From Pseudoclavibacter sp. AY1H1 (GTDB lineage Bacteria > Actinomycetota > Actinomycetes > Actinomycetales > Microbacteriaceae): 64,000 nucleotides of DNA. Within the stretch, counting starts at the first letter, position 1. Each line of letters starts with the position of its first letter. Below, in pieces: positions 6,625 through 64,000 of this stretch. The DNA lies in the NCBI RefSeq assembly GCF_002931055.1, contig NZ_PSXX01000017.1, positions 1 to 64,000 on the forward strand. Reading direction: 5' to 3'. A model generated the notes under the pieces. The model ran no database searches. It saw only the letters and a program-made list of their open reading frames with translations, and was not told the origin of the DNA. The position numbers and the translations under genes are program-made.

Positions 6625-8763
6625 GTGAGCGCAGTAGCCCGGCGGACGACCTCCACCCCTTCTTCTCGGACGCCCGACGTCGACACGGAGGGCATCCGCG
6701 TCCCGTACCGGTGGCGCTCCGCGCACGGGGTCTGGCGGAACCTCGTCTTCCTCTGGCGGACGTCGCTTCCCTTCCGGACGATCGCGCTCTCGGTCGCGTT
6801 GACGACGGCGACGGTGCTGTCCGTCGGCTTCGTCATGTCCAACTCCATCGCGAGCGACCTGTTCAACTCGAGGCTCAGGCCCCTCGTCTCGGAGACCGAG
6901 CGTGCTGTGACCGCGGCTCAGACGGTCTTCGCCTCAGGCGAGGAGACCGACAGCGCGGCCCTCGAGACCCTGCAGACGCTTGCGGTTGACGCGGCGCAGG
7001 ACTCGGCGGCCAACAGCTACGGCGTCATCTTCATGCAGGGGGCGTCGGACGGCGAGGAGCAATCCAACGAGCTGCGGGCGCTGGCGAAGGGGCCAGTCTC
7101 GGCCGATCTGGTCTCGCCGGAGCTGAAGGAAGCGGTGAGGTCGGGCGCGGAGACCGCGGCGACCGGAACGACCTCGGCGTCGCCGCAGACGTACTACCAG
7201 TCGATCGCGCTCGTCGACGAGTTCGGCAACGAGGTGCCCGGCATCGTCATCGGCTCGACCGTCACCGTGCAGAGCCTCGGCCAGTACGAGATGTACTTCG
7301 TGTACTCGATGGAGGAGACGCAGCAGACGCTCGACTTCGTGCAGCGCACCCTCGTGGTCGCCATGATCGTCCTGGTGCTCCTGGTCGCCGTCATCACGGG
7401 GTTCGTCATGCGGGCTGTGATCCAGCCGATTCGGGAGGCCGCGAAGACGAGCAGGCGCCTCGCGGCGGGGCACCTGGAGCAGCGCGTGCCGGAGTCGGGA
7501 GAGGACGACATCGCGACGCTCGCGAGGTCGTTCAACGAGATGGCGGACAGCCTGCAGGACCAGATCGAGCGCCTCGCGAACCTGTCCCAGGTGCAGCAGC
7601 GCTTCGTCTCAGATGTCTCGCACGAGCTGCGCACGCCGCTCACGACCATCCGTCTCGCCGGTGGGATGCTCTTCGACCGTCGCGACGACTTCGACACCGT
7701 CACGGCGCGGTCGGTCGAGCTCCTCCACGACCAGATCGAACGGTTCGAGATCCTGCTCGCCGACCTCCTGGAGATCTCCAGGTACGACGCCGGAGCGGTC
7801 GAGATCCTGCGGGAATCGAACAGCCTCGCGACCGTCGCCGACGACGTCATCGGCGCCATGACCCCGGTCGCGCTCGATCACGGCACGCGCCTCGTGCTCA
7901 AGGCGCCAGGTGGCTACGGGGAGTCCGAGTTCGATGCCCGCCGCATCAACCGCGTCGTCAGGAACCTCCTCGGCAACGCCATCGAGCACGGGGAGGCGAA
8001 GCCGATCGTCGTGTCGGTCGACTCCAACGAGTCTGCCGTCGCGCTGTCCGTGCGCGATTACGGCATCGGCATGACCGAGGCCGAGCGCACCAGGGTCTTC
8101 GACCGCTTCTGGCGCGCCGACCCGTCGCGCAAGCGCACGATGGGCGGGTCCGGTCTCGGTCTCGCGATCTCGCTCGAGGACGTTCGCCTGCACGAGGGGC
8201 GCCTGGAGGTCTGGTCGGAATCGGGCAAGGGGACGAACTTCCGGCTCACCCTGCCGAGATTCGTCGGCGGCAAGATCATGGGCTCACCGCTTCCGCTCGA
8301 GCCCGGAGATGCAGGTGCCGCCACCGTCACGATCGACGAGGAGGATGCGTCCTCCGAGGCGTTCACCGACGAAGACGTCGACACTCAGCCGATCGAGCTG
8401 CCTGACCTCGTCGGCATGCGCTCCTCCAACGCCGAACCGCTCGTCTCCTCGGCACCCACGAACTCGATGGATGTCATCGAGGCGACGTCCCTCGACGAGC
8501 CGGCGCAGACCCCAGCACCCTGGGACGATGCGGAAGCTGTTGTGGTGACCAGCTCGGCTCCCGAGTCCGTGCCTTCGCTTCCCAGCATCGACGACCACGA
8601 TGGCGACGAACACGATCACGATCACGACGGCGATGCCGACATGCGCCGCGAGGACGACCAAGGCGACGAGGGCACGCGCGGCGAGGATGCGCGCGAGGAC
8701 ACAGAGGACGAGGACCCGCCCGTCGGGGAATCAGCAGAGCAGGGGCAGGAGGAGCGGACATGA
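6625..8763 (+). CDS. mtrB: Sensor histidine kinase MtrB with acidic His/Asp-rich tail
   Basis: The 712-residue kinase has two membrane spans flanking an extracellular region, a HAMP domain, a HisKA site with His333 (SHELRTPLTT) and an HATPase domain with the N box NLLGNAIEHG and the GSGLGLAI motif. It phosphorylates MtrA. The chosen start is GTG at 6625, one base after the mtrA stop; the longer frame to 6514 lies inside mtrA. Beyond the kinase core is a tail of about 160 residues that becomes very acidic and contains DDHDGDEHDHDHDGDAD (about residues 655-671), which is longer than I would expect for MtrB. The end overlaps lpqB by 4 bases. Confidence 0.95.
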   Translation: MSAVARRTTSTPSSRTPDVDTEGIRVPYRWRSAHGVWRNLVFLWRTSLPFRTIALSVALTTATVLSVGFVMSNSIASDLFNSRLRPLVSETERAVTAAQTVFASGEETDSAALETLQTLAVDAAQDSAANSYGVIFMQGASDGEEQSNELRALAKGPVSADLVSPELKEAVRSGAETAATGTTSASPQTYYQSIALVDEFGNEVPGIVIGSTVTVQSLGQYEMYFVYSMEETQQTLDFVQRTLVVAMIVLVLLVAVITGFVMRAVIQPIREAAKTSRRLAAGHLEQRVPESGEDDIATLARSFNEMADSLQDQIERLANLSQVQQRFVSDVSHELRTPLTTIRLAGGMLFDRRDDFDTVTARSVELLHDQIERFEILLADLLEISRYDAGAVEILRESNSLATVADDVIGAMTPVALDHGTRLVLKAPGGYGESEFDARRINRVVRNLLGNAIEHGEAKPIVVSVDSNESAVALSVRDYGIGMTEAERTRVFDRFWRADPSRKRTMGGSGLGLAISLEDVRLHEGRLEVWSESGKGTNFRLTLPRFVGGKIMGSPLPLEPGDAGAATVTIDEEDASSEAFTDEDVDTQPIELPDLVGMRSSNAEPLVSSAPTNSMDVIEATSLDEPAQTPAPWDDAEAVVVTSSAPESVPSLPSIDDHDGDEHDHDHDGDADMRREDDQGDEGTRGEDAREDTEDEDPPVGESAEQGQEERT

Positions 8764-55020: not shown

Positions 55021-56613
55021 GTGTCAAAGCCCGTCGTTCTGCTTGCCGAGCAGCTTTCCCCCGCAACCGTGGATGCGCTCGGTCCCGACTTCGAAGTCCG
55101 CCAGGTCGACGGTACCGACCGTCCCGCGCTCCTCGAGGCACTCGCCGAGGCCAACGCCATCCTGGTGCGCAGCGCGACCCAGGTCGACGCCGAGGCGATC
55201 GCGGCAGCCCCGAACCTGAAGATCATCGCGCGCGCCGGCGTCGGCCTGGACAACGTCGACACGCCAGCCGCCACGAAGGCCGGCGTCATGGTCGTCAACG
55301 CGCCCACCTCGAACATCACGTCGGCCGCCGAGCTCGCGGTCGGCCACATCATCTCGCTCGCTCGCCACATCCCGAACGCCAACGCGTCGATGAAGGCCGG
55401 CGACTGGAAGCGCTCGAAGTACACGGGTGTCGAGCTGTTCGAGAAGACCGTCGGCATCGTCGGCCTCGGCCGCATCGGCACGCTCGTCGTCGACCGCCTC
55501 AAGGGCTTCGGCGTGACGCTCGTCGCCTACGACCCCTACGTGACGCCCGCCCGCGCCTCCCAGCTGGGCGTGCAGCTCCTCAGCCTCGAAGAGCTCATGG
55601 CGCAGTCCGACTTCATCACCATCCACATCCCGCGCACCCCCGAGACGACGGGGCTCATCGGCGACGCGGAGTTCGCGCTCGCCAAGCCCGAGCTGCGCAT
55701 CGTGAACTGCTCACGCGGCGGCATCATCGACGAGAACGCGCTCCGCGACGCCCTCGAGTCGGGCAAGATCGCCGGCGCCGCCCTCGACGTGTTCGTCACC
55801 GAGCCGCCGTCGAACCGCGACCTCCTCGACCAGCCGAACCTGCAGCTCACGCCGCACCTGGGCGCATCCACCGACGAGGCCCAGGAAAAGGCCGGCGTCT
55901 CGGTTGCCCGCTCCGTGCGCCTCGCGCTCGCCGGTGAGCTCGTGCCCGACGCGGTGAACGTCGCCGGCGGCGTCATCGACGAGTACGTGCGCCCCGGCAT
56001 CCCGCTCATGGAGAAGCTCGGCCAGTTCCTGCAGGGCCTCATCGGCGCCTCCCCGGTGGCGTTCGACATCGAGGTGCACGGCGAGCTCGCACGCTACGAG
56101 ATCAAGGCGCTGCGTCTCGCCGCGCTCAAGGGCTTCTTCACGAACATGGTTACCGAGCAGGTCTCCTACGTGAACGCGCCGCTCCTCGCGGAGGAGCGCG
56201 GCCTCGAGGTTCGCATGAACGCGGATGAGGACAGCGACGAGTACCGCAACGTGCTTACCCTCCGCGCGACGCTCAGCGACGGCAAGACGGTTTCCGTGTC
56301 CGGCACGCTCACCGGCCCGAAGCAGATCGAGAAGCTCGTCGGCATCAACGGATACAGCATCGAAGTGCCGCTCGCGAACCACCACCTCGTGATGGTCTAC
56401 AGCGACCGCCCCGGCGTCGTCGCCGTCTACGGTGCCGCGCTCGGCGACGCCGGTGTGAACATCGCCGGCATGCAGATCGCGCGCGATGAAGAGGGCGGCC
56501 AGGCCCTCTCCGTGCTCACGATCGACGAGCCCGCGAGCGACGAGCTGCTCGCGAAGCTGCGCGACGCGATCGGCGCCTCCGAGCTGCACGAGATCGACAT
56601 CATCGAGAGCTAG
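55021..56613 (+). CDS. serA: D-3-phosphoglycerate dehydrogenase
   Basis: The 530-residue protein is the long actinobacterial SerA type: NAD domain (GIVGLGRIGTLV), catalytic segments with RGGIIDENAL and HLGASTDEAQEKAG, then the extra ASB domain and a C-terminal ACT domain (HLVMVYSDRPGVVAVYG, NIAGMQIARDEEG) for serine feedback. It starts serine synthesis from 3-phosphoglycerate. GTG at 55021 has GGAGGATTC upstream. It is a separate unit from ilvC, from which a terminator divides it. Confidence 0.96.
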   Translation: MSKPVVLLAEQLSPATVDALGPDFEVRQVDGTDRPALLEALAEANAILVRSATQVDAEAIAAAPNLKIIARAGVGLDNVDTPAATKAGVMVVNAPTSNITSAAELAVGHIISLARHIPNANASMKAGDWKRSKYTGVELFEKTVGIVGLGRIGTLVVDRLKGFGVTLVAYDPYVTPARASQLGVQLLSLEELMAQSDFITIHIPRTPETTGLIGDAEFALAKPELRIVNCSRGGIIDENALRDALESGKIAGAALDVFVTEPPSNRDLLDQPNLQLTPHLGASTDEAQEKAGVSVARSVRLALAGELVPDAVNVAGGVIDEYVRPGIPLMEKLGQFLQGLIGASPVAFDIEVHGELARYEIKALRLAALKGFFTNMVTEQVSYVNAPLLAEERGLEVRMNADEDSDEYRNVLTLRATLSDGKTVSVSGTLTGPKQIEKLVGINGYSIEVPLANHHLVMVYSDRPGVVAVYGAALGDAGVNIAGMQIARDEEGGQALSVLTIDEPASDELLAKLRDAIGASELHEIDIIES

Positions 56614-56643
56614 CACTTCCAGCGGCGGCCTGCCGCCCCGGCG

Positions 56644-56709
56644 AACGCTGCCTGCGTCTTCACCCCCTGCGAGAGCTCGCCGGGGGTGAAGACGCAGGCA
56701 GCGTTTTTT
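56644..56709 (+). terminator. Strong 24-bp terminator of serA
   Basis: A 24-base arm (56644-56667, AACGCTGCCTGCG...) pairs perfectly with 56682-56705, followed by TTTTTT. The stem is much longer than usual terminators and lies 30 bases after serA. Confidence 0.9.
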
Positions 56710-56725
56710 GGTCAGTGGCTGTCAT

Positions 56726-56801
56726 GGCCAGCTTGCGGGATGGATGCCGCCCGGTGGGACCCGGTGGACGTGCTGCGGTGCATCCGTCACGCAAGCTGGC
56801 C
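56726..56801. repeat. Hairpin repeat, copy A
   Basis: A 22-base arm GGCCAGCTTGCGGGATGGAT.. (56726-56747) pairs with 56780-56801 (two mismatches). It is about 76 bp long and similar to copy B at 57004. Confidence 0.75.
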
Positions 56802-56824
56802 GACGCCCGGGCGGGTGGAGAGCC

Positions 56825-56849
56825 GTCCCGTCCCGTCCCGTCCCGTCCC
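56825..56849 (+). repeat. GTCCC pentanucleotide microsatellite
   Basis: Five perfect tandem copies of GTCCC. Confidence 0.9.
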
Positions 56850-56864
56850 GCCGCGGGCGCGATC

Positions 56865-57156
56865 GCTGCCAGCCAATTGCCCCGCTGACGCCCCGGCTGG
56901 AGGGCGACTGCTGGGCAGCGATGGAGGCTCGGGGCCGGAGCGGGTGGCGGGGCGTGGACGGTCCCGGTGGTTGGTCTGTCGCCGCGGCCGGCTCGTGGCG
57001 TGACCAACTTCCGGGATGGATGCGGGTCGGCGGGGCCTTGCGAGGCTGTTCTGGCGCGTCCATCACGCAAGTTGGACGATGCTGCGCTGGCGCGAGCGCT
57101 GCCAGGCAAGTGGCGCTCTCGAGGCGAGCGACGCCCGTCGCTGCCAGCCAAGTGGC
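56865..57156. repeat. Three dispersed copies of GCTGCCAGNCAAKTGSC
   Basis: Near-identical 16-17-base copies lie at 56865-56881, 57098-57114 and 57140-57156, all in the same orientation. Confidence 0.7.
57004..57075. repeat. Hairpin repeat, copy B
   Basis: CCAACTTCCGGGATGGATGC (57004-57023) pairs with 57056-57075 (three mismatches). Arms share CTTNCGGGATGGATGC and TCACGCAAG with copy A; the loops differ. Confidence 0.72.
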
Positions 57157-57178
57157 CTCTTTGGCATCCGTCATGTCG

Positions 57179-57375
57179 CGGGACATCGGTGACAGTTCGA
57201 GCGGGGCCGGTAGTGACACTTCTCGGGCTTATCGGTTGGGTGGGCGTGCTGATCAACCCGGGGCATGTCGTCGAATGAGCCTGTTGATGCCCGTGTCGGT
57301 CCCGCGATCAGTCAGCCGCCGGTGGCACCGTTCAGCTCCAGATCATTCGCGGGCAAAACTGTCACCGATGTCCCG
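57179..57375. repeat. 19-bp perfect inverted repeat, possible IS ends or MITE
   Basis: CGGGACATCGGTGACAGTT (57179-57197) recurs as its exact inverse complement at 57357-57375, 159 bases apart. The TGTCACCGATGTCCCG form is like the ends of some actinobacterial insertion sequences, but no transposase fragment is seen. Either a small non-autonomous element or two flanking IS remnants would explain it. Confidence 0.65.
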
Positions 57376-57755
57376 TGAACTCACACCCGAGGCGTCACAG
57401 ATCGCCGCGGTTGTGCACACAAGCAGCATTGTTGTGCGCTCGGGATGGGGTGGACCTGAAGTGCGCGGCTCCGTGGTGGGGATGCTTGTCGCCCAATGTT
57501 CGGGCGAAACACGCATTGGTGCGTGGAATCAGGTGAATTGTCCAAGGGTCGAACTTTCGAAGGATGGTCCGCGGACCGCGCGAATGCAACGCTAGCCGCA
57601 TGCACAGAAAAGCACGTCAGCAGCACGGAGGCGGTGTCCTTCCCAAACCGCATTCTCGTTGCCGGGAGAGTCGTGTGGGAAAGGGGTCCGAGAATGCTCT
57701 TGTCGCGGCGCAATGCTGTAAATCGGAAACTTGCATGATGCTTCATGGTAAATGC

Positions 57756-57784
57756 TTGACGTGAAGAGCGACCTTTTCTAGTTT
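57756..57784 (+). promoter_or_regulatory. Lasso cluster promoter
   Basis: TTGACG (57756-57761) and TAGTTT (57779-57784) are separated by the ideal 17 bases and lie 48 bases before the precursor ATG. It is the best sigma-70-type promoter in this part of the window. Confidence 0.7.
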
Positions 57785-57832
57785 AGAACGGCGGTCGAAC
57801 GGAGGCCGCGAAGTCACTATCAAGGGGGAAAG

Positions 57833-57961
57833 ATGTCCAATTACATTGCGCCGAAAATCGAGCAGGTCGGATCCTACCGAAAGGTCACGAACGGGGTCTG
57901 GTTCGGTCGCTGGCGCGACATCTTCGGCGGGCGAGCATTCATCAAGGTGACGGTCGGCTAG
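57833..57961 (+). CDS. Lasso peptide precursor, propeptin-like
   Basis: This 42-residue peptide was read directly from the DNA. The leader has the actinobacterial lasso motif Y-x-x-P (Tyr4, Pro7), G13 and an aromatic Tyr15, and ends with Thr19-Asn20, Thr being the conserved penultimate leader residue. Cleavage after Asn20 gives a 22-residue core: ring segment GVWFGRWRD, where the Gly1 amine would join the Asp9 side chain (9-membered ring), then tail IFGGRAFIKVTVG. The shared RD(I/L)FGG..FI pattern resembles propeptin as I remember it. AAGGGGGAAAG precedes the ATG. The cyclase gene follows after 74 bases. Identity as lasso precursor is strong; structure and activity are inferred. Confidence 0.93.
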   Translation: MSNYIAPKIEQVGSYRKVTNGVWFGRWRDIFGGRAFIKVTVG

Positions 57962-58035
57962 GGGTCGTCGTTCGAACGAGGGGGCGGTGCGCTCATCGCG
58001 TGCATCGTCCCCTCCAGGCTCGAAGGAGAAAGGTG

Positions 58036-59539
58036 GTGAGGGGCATCTCAACGCTCAATGAAATCCGGTCGACTTTCTCGACGTCCACGCTCTGCTATTG
58101 GACGATGGATGACGGGGTCGTTCGTACCAGTGCATCCCAGCTCGACCTGCGTGGCTTCGCTGCGCTGGACCTCGACCGACTTTCGCTGGAGACCTGCCCC
58201 AACCTGCCGAGCATCTTCCGCCTGCGTCCGTTCTGGGCGAATGTCCGGGTGGTCGCCCCAGGTCACGACCTGGTTGTCGCTGGGGGGGCGAGGGGGTGAT
58301 CGACGCTGGTGGGAGGCGGGCGAGCACCGAGATGCGACGTTCGAAGCGGCGGCGGACCAATTGCGGCACGCTCTCCGCACCGCGGTCGAGCGGCGCCTCT
58401 GCCCGGGCGAGCGCCTCGGGGCAGATCTCTCTGGGGGGATGGACTCGACGTCGCTCGCCTACCTGGTTGAGGCGGTCGGGGGCGAGGTTGCTCACTTCCA
58501 TGCAGGAACTGCGGATGCACAGAACCAGGACTCGCGATACGCGCGGCGAGCCGCGGCTGAGCTGCGCGGCGAGTTCGTGGAGCTGCCGTCCTTCACATCG
58601 ACGCTTGACGCGTTCGCCACGGCAGCACGGAACGGGGAACGCACAGGGCGCGGCGTTTCCGGGCCGCCGGCCTGGCGAGCCAACATGCCACATCTGCAGA
58701 TGCTGTTCGAGCAGGAGCGTGCCCGAGATATTCGCACGCACATCAATGGGCTGGGTGGTGACGAGCTGTTCGCCCTGCAACCGGCGATCATGTCGTCGTT
58801 GGTGCAGTCCGGCGCGGTCGCTGTTGGGCTGCGATCCGCTGCCCGTCTGGCGCGTGCGCAACGGTGGCCGGTGCTGCGGACTCTTGCAGCCGTGTGCTCC
58901 ACACGCACCCTTGGTGACGAATTGGTGGCGCGTGTCCACGCGGACGTGAGTCCGCACGCTGACGCCTTCGGCTGGGCCCCGGGCTTCGGGGTCTCACGTT
59001 TCGCCTCCGCGCAGACACGGGCGAGAGTCGAGGCGCAGATCCGCGGTCAGGCAACGGCCGGGATCGAGCCGCACTTTCCCGATAAGGCCCGGCACCAGAT
59101 GGCCGAGTCGGTCATGTTCCAAGGGGAAGTCGTGCGGCAGGTCAACGAGACGTTTGCCGACGAGGGGGTTGGTTGGGAAGCGCCCTTTCTCGATGACGAG
59201 ATCCTGCGACTCATGTTCGGGCTCTCCTCGTCGATAGCGATAGGACAGCGGCATTCGAAGCCCCTGCTGGCTGCGAGCATGAAGGGTCTCGCGCCTGAGT
59301 GGATATTCAGTCGTGAAGACAAGGGTGAGTACAGCGCAGATCTGTTCAGTGCCTTTGCTTCCAGAATCGATGGCCTGAAATCACTGTTTCGCGAGAGTTT
59401 TCTTATCGATCAAGGTCTGTTGAATCCCGACGCGATTCTCACTGCACTGGAGATGCCCGTGTTGAAGACGCACGACCTCTTCGAAATCGAGCAGCTCGCG
59501 ACCCTTGAGCTCTGGGCTCGGGAAATGGAAGGCGAATGA
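58036..59539 (+). pseudogene. Lasso cyclase (asparagine-synthetase-like), frameshifted
   Basis: The gene encodes an ATP-dependent lasso macrolactam synthetase (C protein) in two frames. The N-terminal glutamine-amidotransferase-like half is read from GTG 58036 (AAGGAG 7 bases upstream) and stops at TGA 58297-58299. The rest is open in the next frame through the synthetase domain (PP-loop ADLSGGMDSTSLAYL, then HINGLGGDELFALQ and EAPFLDDEILRLMFGL) to 59539. The shift must fall in 58282-58299, which holds G7 and G5 runs; deleting one G restores a 500-residue protein reading ...VVAGGRGGDRRWW. A sequencing error, a true mutation or slippage are all possible. Its stop overlaps the next gene by 4 bases. 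Confidence 0.88.
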
Positions 59540-59820
59540 GCGACAGATTGAGCGACGCCGATATCTATACCTTGTCGCCGACATGCTCGTTTGAGCAAGA
59601 GGGAGAAGGGGTTGTGGTTTTCGATGCAGGTGGAGGAATGTACTGGCGCGGCAACTCGACCGCCAGGCTGGTGCTTGAGCTCACCGTCCGGGGATGCACG
59701 CGCGCGGACGCCGTTGACCGGTTGGAGCGCGAGCACGGCCCCTCGGCAGGCGTGCGAGATGACGTGCGAGGCCTCTTGGCCGTCCTGATCAAAGCGCGCA
59801 TCGTGAAGCGCAGCGCATGA
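59536..59820 (+). CDS. Lasso RRE protein (PqqD-like, B1/E protein)
   Basis: The 94-residue protein has the PqqD-like RiPP recognition fold: GEGVVVFDAGGGMYWRGNST beta-hairpin, then helices with TRADAVDRLEREHG and DDVRGLLAVLIKARIV. Such proteins bind the Y-x-x-P leader of the precursor and present it to the peptidase and cyclase. The ATG overlaps the cyclase stop as ATGA and the stop overlaps the peptidase start, the usual actinobacterial C-B1-B2 order. Confidence 0.9.
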   Translation: MSDRLSDADIYTLSPTCSFEQEGEGVVVFDAGGGMYWRGNSTARLVLELTVRGCTRADAVDRLEREHGPSAGVRDDVRGLLAVLIKARIVKRSA

Positions 59821-60239
59821 GCCTTCCGCTGAACGCCCAGCCTTCCATCGCGACGAGAGGCTGCCGCGCCCTGACCGTGCGGTGCGCGGTCTCGGTCGCG
59901 TATCTGATCACGTACGCCAAGCCGCGGCAGATCAGACGGTTGCTCATCGAGCTGCGCCGTGGGGTCCGCCCATCGACGCGCGAGGAGGCGGAAGTCGCGC
60001 GCGCGGCGGTGTGCGGCGTGAGTGAGCGTTGCGCTGGAGAGGGCTGCCTGCAGCGCTCCATCGCGACGGTCCTTCTCTGCCGCTTCGAAGGCCACGCGCC
60101 GAGCTGGTGCTCCGGCTACCGGACGGGGCCGTTCGTCGCGCATGCCTGGGTGGAAGCGGATGGCGTGCCCGTGTCGGAACCCCCCGAGGTAGCCAGCTAC
60201 CGGAGAGTCGTCACGACCGAAGAGGACAGGCCGTCATGA
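59817..60239 (+). CDS. Lasso leader peptidase (transglutaminase-like, B2/B protein)
   Basis: The 140-residue cysteine protease has the catalytic Cys in EGCLQRSIATVLLCR and His in FVAHAWVEADG. It would cut the leader after Asn20. Homologues have an Asp a few residues after the His segment as third catalytic residue; here the sequence is GVPVSEPPEV, so Glu may stand in its place. A Tyr-Ala-Lys-Pro stretch (LITYAKPRQIRRLL) marks the N-terminal part. Overlaps both neighbours by 4 bases. Confidence 0.88.
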   Translation: MSLPLNAQPSIATRGCRALTVRCAVSVAYLITYAKPRQIRRLLIELRRGVRPSTREEAEVARAAVCGVSERCAGEGCLQRSIATVLLCRFEGHAPSWCSGYRTGPFVAHAWVEADGVPVSEPPEVASYRRVVTTEEDRPS

Positions 60240-61030
60240 CCATGTTCCTCCAATCGCTCCACGCGGAAGCCATCAAGTTCACCTCACTGCGTTCGTCGCG
60301 GAACGCGAGTCTCACAACCGTTGCGGTCGTGACAGGTGCCGCGTACGGCGTCACCGCGCTGACGCACCAGGCGATGCTCTCTGGAGATGTCAGCGCTGCT
60401 GGCGGACTCGAGCCTCAGTCGGCTTTCCTCATGGTGTTGCACTACGGGCAGATCGGGGCGATCTTCCTGGGGGCGAGTGTCTTCGCGCAGGAGCGGGACA
60501 ACGGTGTTGTGGCATCCTCGCTTCTCGCTGTTCCCAACCGACGCAGCTTCTTCCTCGCGAAGGCGCTCTCCGCCCTCGCCTTCGGCTTCGCGGTCGCCCT
60601 TCCTGCTGTTCTCGGGAGCTATGCCGTCCGCTGCGCTGTCCTCGACTGCCGTGCGGTCGACAGCCTGACGAGCCTCCCCGGTGGAGACCTGCGCCTGCTC
60701 GCGGGGTACCTCGTCTACTGGTCGCTCATCAGCCTGCTCTCGTTCCTGATCTCGTCGGCGTTCCGCAGCGGCATCGTTGGGCTCTGCGCCATGCTCGCGC
60801 TCACGCTCGCCATCTCGCCGTACCTGCTCGAGTTCACCTCGGTCGCCAGGTTCTTGCCCGACCAGGCAGGCGCACAACTCCTTCTTCAGGACGCTCCGCT
60901 TGTCGGGGACCTGGGGCCGATGCTCGGGCTCGCCGTGCTGCTGAGCTGGATCGGCGTCTTCGCCGTCGCTGGATTTCTCTCGGTCCGCTCCTGGGCCGTC
61001 AACCACGCAGAAAAGGGGGTGGGTTCATGA
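60236..61030 (+). CDS. ABC-2 type permease in lasso cluster, first
   Basis: The 264-residue protein has six likely helices in ABC-2 layout with the conserved FAQERDNGVVASSLLAVPNRRSFF segment. It starts at ATG 60236, overlapping the peptidase stop; the open frame to 60029 is not used. It pairs with the ATPase that follows and the second permease, probably for lasso export or self-protection. Confidence 0.86.
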   Translation: MTMFLQSLHAEAIKFTSLRSSRNASLTTVAVVTGAAYGVTALTHQAMLSGDVSAAGGLEPQSAFLMVLHYGQIGAIFLGASVFAQERDNGVVASSLLAVPNRRSFFLAKALSALAFGFAVALPAVLGSYAVRCAVLDCRAVDSLTSLPGGDLRLLAGYLVYWSLISLLSFLISSAFRSGIVGLCAMLALTLAISPYLLEFTSVARFLPDQAGAQLLLQDAPLVGDLGPMLGLAVLLSWIGVFAVAGFLSVRSWAVNHAEKGVGS

Positions 61031-61752
61031 TCGAAGTCGAGAACCTGACAAAGAACTACGGTAAGCGCACGGCCATCGAGTCCGTGTCCTTCGAAGCCAG
61101 AGCAGGCAGGGTGACGGGATTGCTCGGCCCGAACGGAGCGGGCAAATCAACGACGATGCGGATTCTGCTCGGCCTCGACCGAGCAACGTCCGGGCGCGCG
61201 TTGGTGCTCGGCTCCGAGTACCGAAGTCTGCGGCGTCCCCTGACCCGCGTTGGCGCGCAATTCGACGGGTCGGGTGCCCATCGCGGACGCACGGCGAGAG
61301 CGCACCTCCGCTGGATGGCGGCCAGCAACGGGATCTCGCCCACGCGCATCCCGGAAACGCTGCAGCTCGTCGGGCTGTCGGACGTCGCTGACCGTCGCGT
61401 CGGGACCTTCTCTCTGGGCATGGGGCAGCGTCTGGGCATCGCGGGCGCGCTCCTCGGCGACCCGGAGGTCGTGATCCTGGACGAACCGATGAACGGGCTC
61501 GACCCGGAGGGTATTCGCTGGATTCGAGATCTTGCTCGCTCGCTGGCGGGTTCCGGACGCACGGTGCTCATCTCGTCGCACCTCATGGGGGAGATGCAGT
61601 CCATGGCTGATGACCTCGTCGTGATGGCACGCGGAAGGGTCATCAGGGCGGGGGCAGCGGCGAGCCTCGTCGCGGAGTTCGACAGTCTCGAGCACGCGTA
61701 CTTCGCCTGGACGCAAGGGCGCGCCGAGCATGTTGCGGGTGATGCCGCGTGA
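61027..61752 (+). CDS. ABC transporter ATP-binding protein
   Basis: The 241-residue ATPase has Walker A GPNGAGKST (34-42), signature SLGMGQRLGIAGALLG, Walker B VVILDEPMNGLDPEG and the H-loop SSHLMGEM. It energises the two ABC-2 permeases encoded on either side (4-base overlaps). The layout resembles bacitracin/lantibiotic BcrA-type immunity transporters. Confidence 0.93.
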   Translation: MIEVENLTKNYGKRTAIESVSFEARAGRVTGLLGPNGAGKSTTMRILLGLDRATSGRALVLGSEYRSLRRPLTRVGAQFDGSGAHRGRTARAHLRWMAASNGISPTRIPETLQLVGLSDVADRRVGTFSLGMGQRLGIAGALLGDPEVVILDEPMNGLDPEGIRWIRDLARSLAGSGRTVLISSHLMGEMQSMADDLVVMARGRVIRAGAAASLVAEFDSLEHAYFAWTQGRAEHVAGDAA

Positions 61753-62519
61753 AGATGGCACTGGCGTCAGAGTCCTGGAAGCTCTTCACCCTCAGAGCAG
61801 TCCTCATCACGCTGGCGGTGAGTCTCGTCGTTCCTGTCCTGATGGCAGCAGTCACCGCCCCCTCCGTTGGCGAGGGGCTGCGCGTCGACGACCCGATGCT
61901 CGCAGCGGGGACAACGCCGGAGGTCGTCGGTCTCGAATGGATCGCACTCGGGCAGATCGGCGTCATCATCGTAGGGGTGCTTGCGGGAAGCGGTGAGTTC
62001 TCCGGCGGCCAGATCCAGACCTCGCTCGTCGCGGTGCCGAATCGGCTCAGGTTCGTCATCGCGAAGATCTCGGTCCTCGCCGTCACAGTGACGTTGCTCG
62101 GCGCGGTCACGATCCCGCTGCTCAGCATCTGCAGTCAGCTCGGTCTCGGATCGCTGAGTGTGCTCAGCGAGGGCGTGCCTGTCTCGCTCCTGGTGCGCTG
62201 GCTGGGCGGCGTCGTCTACTGGACGGGAATCGCGCTGATCGGGTTCAGCTTCGCGGTGCTGGTCCGCCAGGCCCTGGTGCCATTGCTCGTGCTCATCGCG
62301 GTCTCGCAGATATCGCTCGTCCTGGTCTTCCTGACGCCATGGGCGAAGTTCCTGCCGACGATCGCCGGCGCGCAGCTGTTCGATGCGGCCGCCGTGACCG
62401 CAGCGAATCCGGCAGCAGCGCTCGAACCCGGGAGCGCATACGCGGTGTTCCTCCTCACGGTCGTGGCATTGGTCTGCTCCGCCGCCTTCGCGTTCTGCCG
62501 ACGGGATGTGCGCGCATGA
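61749..62519 (+). CDS. ABC-2 type permease in lasso cluster, second
   Basis: The 256-residue protein is a paralogue of the first permease: six helices and SGGQIQTSLVAVPNRLRFVIAK in place of the same loop. Start GTG at 61749 overlaps the ATPase stop as GTGA; ATG 61755 is the alternative. Together the three genes make a heteromeric ABC-2 transporter. Confidence 0.86.
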   Translation: MKMALASESWKLFTLRAVLITLAVSLVVPVLMAAVTAPSVGEGLRVDDPMLAAGTTPEVVGLEWIALGQIGVIIVGVLAGSGEFSGGQIQTSLVAVPNRLRFVIAKISVLAVTVTLLGAVTIPLLSICSQLGLGSLSVLSEGVPVSLLVRWLGGVVYWTGIALIGFSFAVLVRQALVPLLVLIAVSQISLVLVFLTPWAKFLPTIAGAQLFDAAAVTAANPAAALEPGSAYAVFLLTVVALVCSAAFAFCRRDVRA

Positions 62520-64000
62520 GCCTTCCGCGGGAGAAGCGGTCGGCGGCACTCGCCGGTCTGTTCCGACACGTCTTCGTGCAGAAGCCCACGCTCGTCGTGA
62601 TCGTGGTCCTCAGCATCTGCGGCTCGGGGGCGGCGCTCGCGCAGCCGTGGCTCGTGGGCCAGATCATCGACCGGGTCGGCGCGAGCGAATCGCTTGGGGT
62701 GCTTCCGTGGCTGATCGTCGGCCTTCTCGTCGTGGGCGGGCTGATCTCGGGCTTCCTGCAGTACCTCATCCAGAGAACGGCCGAGGTCGCCATCCGATCA
62801 GCTCGGGTGGACCTCGTCGACCACATCCTGCGTCTTCCCATCGCGACCCTCGATCGCCACCGCGTCGGTGATCTGGTCTCCCGCGTGAACGCGGACACCT
62901 CGGTCATCCGCAGCATGTTGACGCAGGGATTCGTGGAGTCGATCGCCGGTGTCGTGACCTTGATCGGCGCGCTGGTGGCGATGTGGTTGATAGATCCGTT
63001 GCTGCTCGTGGTCTCACTCGGCGTCGCACTCGTTGCCGTCTTCCTCGTCGTGATGATGACGTCACGGATCGAGGAGGCCAGCTTGGGGGTGCAACAGGCG
63101 GTCGGCCGCCTGTCGTCCTCGCTGGATCGGGCTATCCGCGCCGTGCGCACAGTGCGGGCGGCGAACATGACAGGCGCGGAGTCGGAGCGTGTGAAGGGGG
63201 ATGTGGAAGCCAGCTGGGCTGCCGGCCTGCGGGTCGCGCGGATCACCGCCACGCTCGCGCCGGTCTCGTCCGCCGCCATGCAGGCCACGTTCCTTGTGGT
63301 CCTCGGACTCGGCGGCTACCAGGTCGCGGCGGGTGTGCTGACCGTCTCCGACCTGGTCTCCTTCATCTTGTTCCTGTTTTTGATGATCATGCCGCTCGGG
63401 CAGATCTTCGGAACGATCAGCGCTGTCGGCGAGGCTGTGGGCGGGATGGTGCGCATCAGCGAGGTCATGGAGCTGCCGCTGGAGGCGGATGCTGAAGCTG
63501 GAGCCGTTACCGCTCCTGCCACCGATGAGGGCAATGTCCTCGAGTTCCAGGACGTCGCTTTCTCCTACCCAGTCGCTCCCGAGCGGGATTCCGAGGATCT
63601 CGCGACGCTCGCAGCGGTCAGCTTCGAGGTGCCGCGAGGCGAGCGCGTCGCGCTCGTCGGGCCATCCGGGGCAGGGAAGAGCACGCTGCTGCAGCTCATC
63701 GCTCGCTTCTACGATGTGGATCGGGGGACGATCCGCTTCAACGGGGTCGATACCGCTGGCATCTCGCGTGAGGCCGTGCGGTCCCGGATCGCCTACGTCG
63801 AGCAGGAGGCGCCCGTGCCCGCGGGGTCCCTGAGGGACGCGGTGACACTTGGCTCACAGGCGCACACCGACACCGACATTCGCGAGCTGTTGAGCGAACT
63901 GGACCTCGTGGGAGTGCTCGAGCGCTCCCCACTCGGCCTCGACGCAGATCTGGGGGAGGGCGGCGTGCTGCTTTCAGGCGGTGAGCGTCAGCGCCTGGCG
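62516..64000 (+). CDS. ABC exporter with fused membrane and ATPase domains (lasso D protein), 3' truncated
   Basis: The first 495 residues are present. An ABC transmembrane domain of six helices (residues about 20-305; IIDRVGASESLG, LPIATLDRHRVGDLVSRVNAD) is followed by an ATPase domain with Walker A GPSGAGKST near residue 382, Q-loop IAYVEQEAPVPAG and signature LLSGGERQRLA at the very end; Walker B lies beyond the window. Lasso clusters usually carry such a D exporter after B2; here three ABC-2 genes come between. The ATG overlaps the previous stop. Confidence 0.93.
   Translation, partial: MSLPREKRSAALAGLFRHVFVQKPTLVVIVVLSICGSGAALAQPWLVGQIIDRVGASESLGVLPWLIVGLLVVGGLISGFLQYLIQRTAEVAIRSARVDLVDHILRLPIATLDRHRVGDLVSRVNADTSVIRSMLTQGFVESIAGVVTLIGALVAMWLIDPLLLVVSLGVALVAVFLVVMMTSRIEEASLGVQQAVGRLSSSLDRAIRAVRTVRAANMTGAESERVKGDVEASWAAGLRVARITATLAPVSSAAMQATFLVVLGLGGYQVAAGVLTVSDLVSFILFLFLMIMPLGQIFGTISAVGEAVGGMVRISEVMELPLEADAEAGAVTAPATDEGNVLEFQDVAFSYPVAPERDSEDLATLAAVSFEVPRGERVALVGPSGAGKSTLLQLIARFYDVDRGTIRFNGVDTAGISREAVRSRIAYVEQEAPVPAGSLRDAVTLGSQAHTDTDIRELLSELDLVGVLERSPLGLDADLGEGGVLLSGGERQRLA

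Follow-up and report, generated by a model that had tools for sequence, protein, structure and literature searches.

Among described lasso peptides, propeptin, a class II peptide of Microbispora with the sequence GYPWWDYRDLFGGHTFISP (PMC12427821), is the point of comparison for the locus analyzed here. Propeptin-like clusters outside Microbispora are already in print, because a putative propeptin-2-family lasso cluster has been reported from Bifidobacterium bifidum (PMC13368793). The window, by which we mean the first 64,000 bases of an 86,348-bp contig of Pseudoclavibacter sp. AY1H1 (NZ_PSXX01000017.1), ends in a lasso peptide cluster of this type whose cyclase gene lies in two reading frames. 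We consider it likely that this class II, propeptin-type cluster was under selection until recently, that its cyclase has since slipped at a run of G residues, and that AY1H1 is now most likely a nonproducer that keeps the export and protection genes.

The precursor gene A (57833..57961, plus strand) encodes 42 amino acids, comprising a 20-residue leader, MSNYIAPKIEQVGSYRKVTN, with Tyr4-x-x-Pro7 and a Thr at position -2, and a 22-residue core, GVWFGRWRDIFGGRAFIKVTVG (57893-57958). A first-pass annotation of the DNA had proposed this small open reading frame (ORF) with its Y-x-x-P leader as a precursor, and an NCBIfam profile search bears it out, with a score of 22.6 bits for NF033521 (lasso_leader_L3), whose cut-off is 19. 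Precursor A alone fits the leader/core pattern among 312 window ORFs of 25 to 90 amino acids, with a pattern that was composed after precursor A was known and that also found a match in 1 of 20 base-shuffled windows. The core has Gly1 and, within the required positions 7 to 9, Asp9, and the D9-x-F-G-G motif recurs in relatives; sequence and family point to a Gly1-Asp9 ring. Pseudoclavibacter helvolus DSM 20419 encodes an identical core (22/22 residues; 2 synonymous and 0 nonsynonymous differences). New lasso cores turn up often. The earlier statement that no described peptide with this exact core is known agrees with a literature text search, which returned no match to the core string, nor to the core strings of the Bacillota clusters or of another Microbacteriaceae genome (G026). 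The Pseudoclavibacter core thus appears new, and the lasso cluster is genuine and of a known, propeptin-like kind.

The comparison with propeptin is one of peptide sequence. With the propeptin sequence as given in PMC12427821, the window core shares Gly1, R8-D9, F11-G12-G13, and F16-I17, but propeptin has 19 residues rather than 22 with a KVTVG tail and begins G-Y-P-W-W-D-Y where the window core begins G-V-W-F-G-R-W. Two cores from other genomes, GYPWWDHRDVFGGRTFIAPW in G026 and GYPFWDNRDIFGGYTFIG in G993, are both near propeptin, and the G026 leader has the YxxP motif and the Thr at -2, as in the window precursor. The earlier description of the core as propeptin-like is accordingly supported by D9-x-F-G-G, by F-I, and by the G026 core, but not by the first half, which is nearer to Bacillota cores such as GVWFGKFTDVFGGKAVFAIVY; the window core combines a Bacillota-like first half (G-V-W-F-G-R) with a propeptin-like F-I. 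Assignment to the propeptin group is to be read with the shared residues on one side and, on the other, the differing first half and the cyclase tree, which places Pseudoclavibacter on a separate long branch, apart from the pair formed by the near-propeptin G026 and G993, with deep forks that are not firmly supported.

The evidence that AY1H1 may no longer make the peptide comes from the cyclase gene, C. An AAGGAG that resembles a ribosome-binding site (58023..58028) stands 7 nucleotides 5' of a GTG at 58036, from which the N part runs (58036..58299, plus strand), aligning with the P. helvolus cyclase over its residues 1-87 and then ending in TGA. The PP-loop, asparagine synthetase-like part continues in another frame (58295..59539, plus strand; PF00733, E 1.2e-26) and covers residues 87-499 of the P. 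helvolus protein, which is itself encoded in a single frame of 500 codons. The PP-loop cyclase of the first-pass annotation is thus a real homolog but not one ORF, and no complete one-frame cyclase with both an N domain and a PP-loop domain was found in the window. Neither part contains an inner stop. At the break lies a run of seven G residues (G7; 58282..58288, plus strand), the only mononucleotide run of at least 7 in the 86,348-bp contig. In P. helvolus, it is the gene for B1 that shifts frame, after residue 56, likewise at a G7 that is the sole run of at least 7 in the 120 kb of contig examined. Genome-wide, separate runs of G7 or longer number 33 in AY1H1 (4.2 Mb) and 21 in P. helvolus (3.8 Mb), as derived from 69 and 35 overlapping G7 hits, respectively.

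Lesions recur in the family. The cyclase search matched 2 of 10 genus genomes (E 1e-10), 4 of 398 family genomes (E 1e-15), and 2 of 396 phylum genomes including AY1H1 (E 1e-25), with at most 4 candidates scored per genome in the family and phylum searches, so that members may have been missed. A precursor profile matched 5 of the 398 family genomes, namely AY1H1, P. helvolus, G026, G268, and a weak G210 (E 0.004) that was set aside; among 374 class genomes it gave 10 matches, of which one is AY1H1 itself and, among the rest, only G993 is strong. Each of the four clear propeptin-like clusters in the 398 Microbacteriaceae genomes is damaged in its precursor, biosynthetic, or export genes: the cyclase is in two frames in AY1H1, B1 is in two frames in P. 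helvolus, and the exporter is in pieces with stops in G026. In G268, a TGA lies inside the propeptin-like core (L110, about position 6695), and the cyclase is reduced to residues 1-50. The ATPase of an accompanying ABC trio is open in all four clusters and its permeases are open in three. Outside the family, the genes compared showed no lesion in the clusters of G993, L015, L016, and L018. Searching viral contigs gave no stretch that matched the cyclase patterns.

Comparison of the two Pseudoclavibacter species bears on how long the cluster was maintained. The ratio of nonsynonymous to synonymous substitution rates (dN/dS) between AY1H1 and P. helvolus is 0.07 for the precursor, 0.153 for the C part of the cyclase, and 0.344 for its N part (10.5 nonsynonymous changes). 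It is 0.195 over the first 56 codons of B1 and 0.541 in the tail past the P. helvolus break, 0.313 for B2, 0.219 for permease 1, 0.119 for the ATPase, 0.046 for permease 2, and 0.122 for exporter D; the comparison genes serA and ilvC give 0.078 and 0.051. These values fit selection during most of the time since the species split, with breaks that would be recent, although the values themselves do not date the breaks.

The cyclase is also short at its N end in both Pseudoclavibacter species compared with 12 other aligned cyclases. Counted up to a shared alignment column, the N-terminal part of the P. helvolus protein is 92 to 106 residues shorter than in eight cyclases of actinobacteria (L005, L006, L008, L010, L011, L012, L014, and L017) and 57 to 88 residues shorter than in four Bacillota cyclases, two of which may have mis-set starts. 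The PP-loop domain with its DLSGGMDS motif is common to the full-length lasso cyclases and the Pseudoclavibacter cyclase, but the position of the motif differs, as it is at residue 131 in P. helvolus compared with 221 to 240 in the actinobacterial and 189 to 220 in the Bacillota proteins. Only 74 bases separate the precursor stop from the cyclase GTG, too few for the absent N-terminal part. AlphaFold2 models of a full-length cyclase from Symbioplanes (mean predicted local distance difference test score [pLDDT] of 80.5, with an ordered N domain) and of the short Pseudoclavibacter cyclase (mean pLDDT of 59.7, with residues 1-88 below 50) differ in N-domain order. Both were built from the same 11 alignment rows, among which the full-length target has the closer relatives and the window row begins about a dozen residues ahead of the break; because the targets are different proteins, the contrast is suggestive only. 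The model of the full-length relative L014 matches TsnB9 (7ylz) and the beta-lactam and asparagine synthetases (1jgt and 1ct9). A search of solved structures returned nothing for the precursor and beta-lactam synthetase alone for the cyclase part.

Downstream of the cyclase, all on the plus strand, the PqqD-like RRE protein, the leader peptidase, and the ABC exporter predicted by the first-pass annotation were each recovered by profile. B1, the RRE protein (59536..59820; 94 amino acids, open in the window), matches PF05402 over the Pfam cut-off and the lasso-specific B1 model NF033530 below its own (44 versus 70 bits), and B2, a transglutaminase-like lasso leader peptidase (59817..60239), matches NF033537 at 93.5 bits against a cut-off of 33; the profiles thus supply the RRE and B2 pair that a lasso cluster requires. 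Exporter D (62516..64000; 588 amino acids, profile match) extends beyond the window, to contig position 64282. The A-C-B1-B2-D order proposed earlier holds for the genes named, but a permease-ATPase-permease trio (60236-62519) intervenes between B2 and the exporter. It consists of an ABC-2 type permease (60236..61030; PF12730 at 19.1 bits, below the cut-off of 27), an ATPase (61027..61752) whose best NCBIfam match, the lantibiotic-protection ATPase TIGR03740, is below cut-off, and a second permease with a GTG start (61749..62519), recognized as an ORF and by pairwise comparison, which is 33% identical to the first and has no Pfam or NCBIfam match. From these families, the trio is a putative self-protection system.

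In a working copy of the cluster, B1 would bind the leader through its RRE, B2 would cut after Thr-Asn, and the ATP-using cyclase would close a ring around the tail by linking Gly1 with the side chain of Asp9, after which D would export the peptide and the trio would protect the cell. The core and enzymes would have remained under purifying selection after the split of the two species, when the N end of the cyclase had already been shortened, and the AY1H1 cyclase would subsequently have slipped out of frame at the G run. Several observations weigh against this account. The frame break is read from a draft assembly in which the G7 run may have been miscounted, and the short cyclase might never have worked. 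The dN/dS values of C, B1, and B2 exceed that of serA, and the B1 tail past the P. helvolus break gives 0.541. The G268 permeases were not found within the stretch taken, and in Lactococcus plantarum (L013) the exporter is broken and the trio ATPase contains a stop, so that loss of production with retention of protection is not general.

That the break is a sequencing or assembly error, with the cluster whole and the peptide made, is unlikely in our estimation. The break does fall at the longest homopolymer of the contig, which is where errors fall, and both cyclase parts are free of inner stops; yet no convincing inner break was seen in 58 genes of the window contig and 52 of P. helvolus that had a match, and such errors would have had to occur independently in one cluster of two sister genomes. 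The background check raised five flags (2 and 3), which probably reflect starts called too far upstream or short coverage, and its gene picker also failed to flag the lasso cyclase and B1, so that the result is not a like-for-like rate. Loss of the N end may instead have killed the cluster long ago, such that neither species ever made the peptide. The models lean that way, as the absent part is predicted with confidence in the full-length relative and residues 1-88 of the short cyclase fall below a pLDDT of 50, but the identity of the core at 22/22 residues and the constraint on the C part of the cyclase were kept after the shortening, and a ribosome-binding-like site precedes the short start, which makes so early a death rather improbable. 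More doubtful still is reversible on/off switching of the gene by the G run (phase variation), or readthrough of the run by slippage. Each species does have a lineage-specific G7 run in a lasso gene, a different gene in each, their genomes hold 33 and 21 separate runs of G7 or longer, and the lasso genes remain constrained; however, an inactivating slip in a dispensable gene would be expected at a G run regardless, the runs of the two species are at nonhomologous places, and no strain series shows switching. For the other 32 G7-or-longer runs of AY1H1 (30 stretches), a coding test gave one apparent shift (L121) but did not call even the cyclase itself, so that it speaks neither for nor against switching.

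Recent loss of production remains the account we favor, and if it is true, it has several implications. The core would connect propeptin with a group from Bacillota, the cores of which turned up nowhere in the literature search; the short cyclase would let one ask, in a natural setting, whether the first half of the N domain is needed for lasso cyclization; and the family would be a modest example of production genes being lost repeatedly. It also urges caution in seeking the peptide in AY1H1 cultures. Production cannot be assumed with a cyclase gene that, in this assembly, is frame-broken and shortened at the N end, and the mass test on culture extracts suggested earlier presupposes a working cyclase. 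What deserves following up is the shortened cyclase together with the recurrent lesions; the peptide itself may not be made.

A search of P. helvolus with a profile of the absent cyclase part turned up a stand-alone protein (E 2.1e-6). The protein recurs in 5 of 10 genus genomes, including AY1H1 (E 4.3e-56), with none in the other 383 family genomes searched. The AY1H1 copy lies at 816669-817214 on the minus strand (G000:C1), and further copies are at L147:5313-5909 and in L155, L156, and L157. The protein lacks a PP-loop part; with about 21% identity, it aligns along the cyclase N domain, including H-x-S-G-x-P-W-L. Its gene stands between AfsA-like and epimerase genes in 4 of 5 genomes and adjoins AfsA- and TetR-type genes in P. 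helvolus; AfsA-like and epimerase genes were not found beside the AY1H1 copy. A lasso role is speculative, because the N-domain protein also occurs in 3 of the 8 genus genomes in which no cyclase was matched. This count, and an inner stop in the G008 copy, leave the case for an obligate trans partner of the cyclase weak. A split cyclase, in which the short PP-loop protein works with an N-domain protein encoded elsewhere and production is further gated by slippage at G runs, would be highly improbable.

Clusters from Bacillota were seen in Metabacillus malikii, two Enterococcus genomes, and Lactococcus plantarum (L013, L015, L016, and L018), among ten relatives (L010-L019) checked for precursors and integrity in a scan of the best 80 of 227 relatives. 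Their cores read GLWTGKFRDVFGGRALF... or GVWFGKFTDVFGGKAVFAIVY, also written GLWTGKFRDVFGG... and GVWFGKFTDVFGG.... In common with the window they have the core start (GVWFG or GLWTG), D9, FGG followed by K/R-A, and an ABC trio with an exporter of the same type. They differ in that B2 is fused to the exporter (a single ORF in three of the four, frame-broken in L. plantarum), whereas the window has separate genes; in that the trio, two permeases and an ATPase in all four, is ordered ATPase-permease-permease; and in that their cyclases, about 25% identical to the Pseudoclavibacter cyclase, have a longer N domain. In the midpoint-rooted cyclase tree (deep forks 89/84), the Pseudoclavibacter pair is on a branch of 1.66 outside both this group and the near-propeptin group. 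A recent transfer from Bacillota is not supported, as the cyclase tree and an ATPase tree rooted in the same way both place the pair outside the Bacillota clade.

A consensus scan of 56600-60300 gave no promoter- or terminator-like site. Upstream of the cluster, the intergenic stretch 56706-57398, with several inverted repeats, is left unmatched by the alignment with P. helvolus, which picks up again at 57399. It includes an element of about 203 bp (57176-57378) with 22-nucleotide inverted ends that are 95% complementary; the exact 19-nucleotide end sequence has no second copy in the AY1H1 genome and none in P. helvolus. Just before this stretch, behind serA, a 30-nucleotide inverted repeat (97% complementary) with a T run after it lies at 56644-56705.

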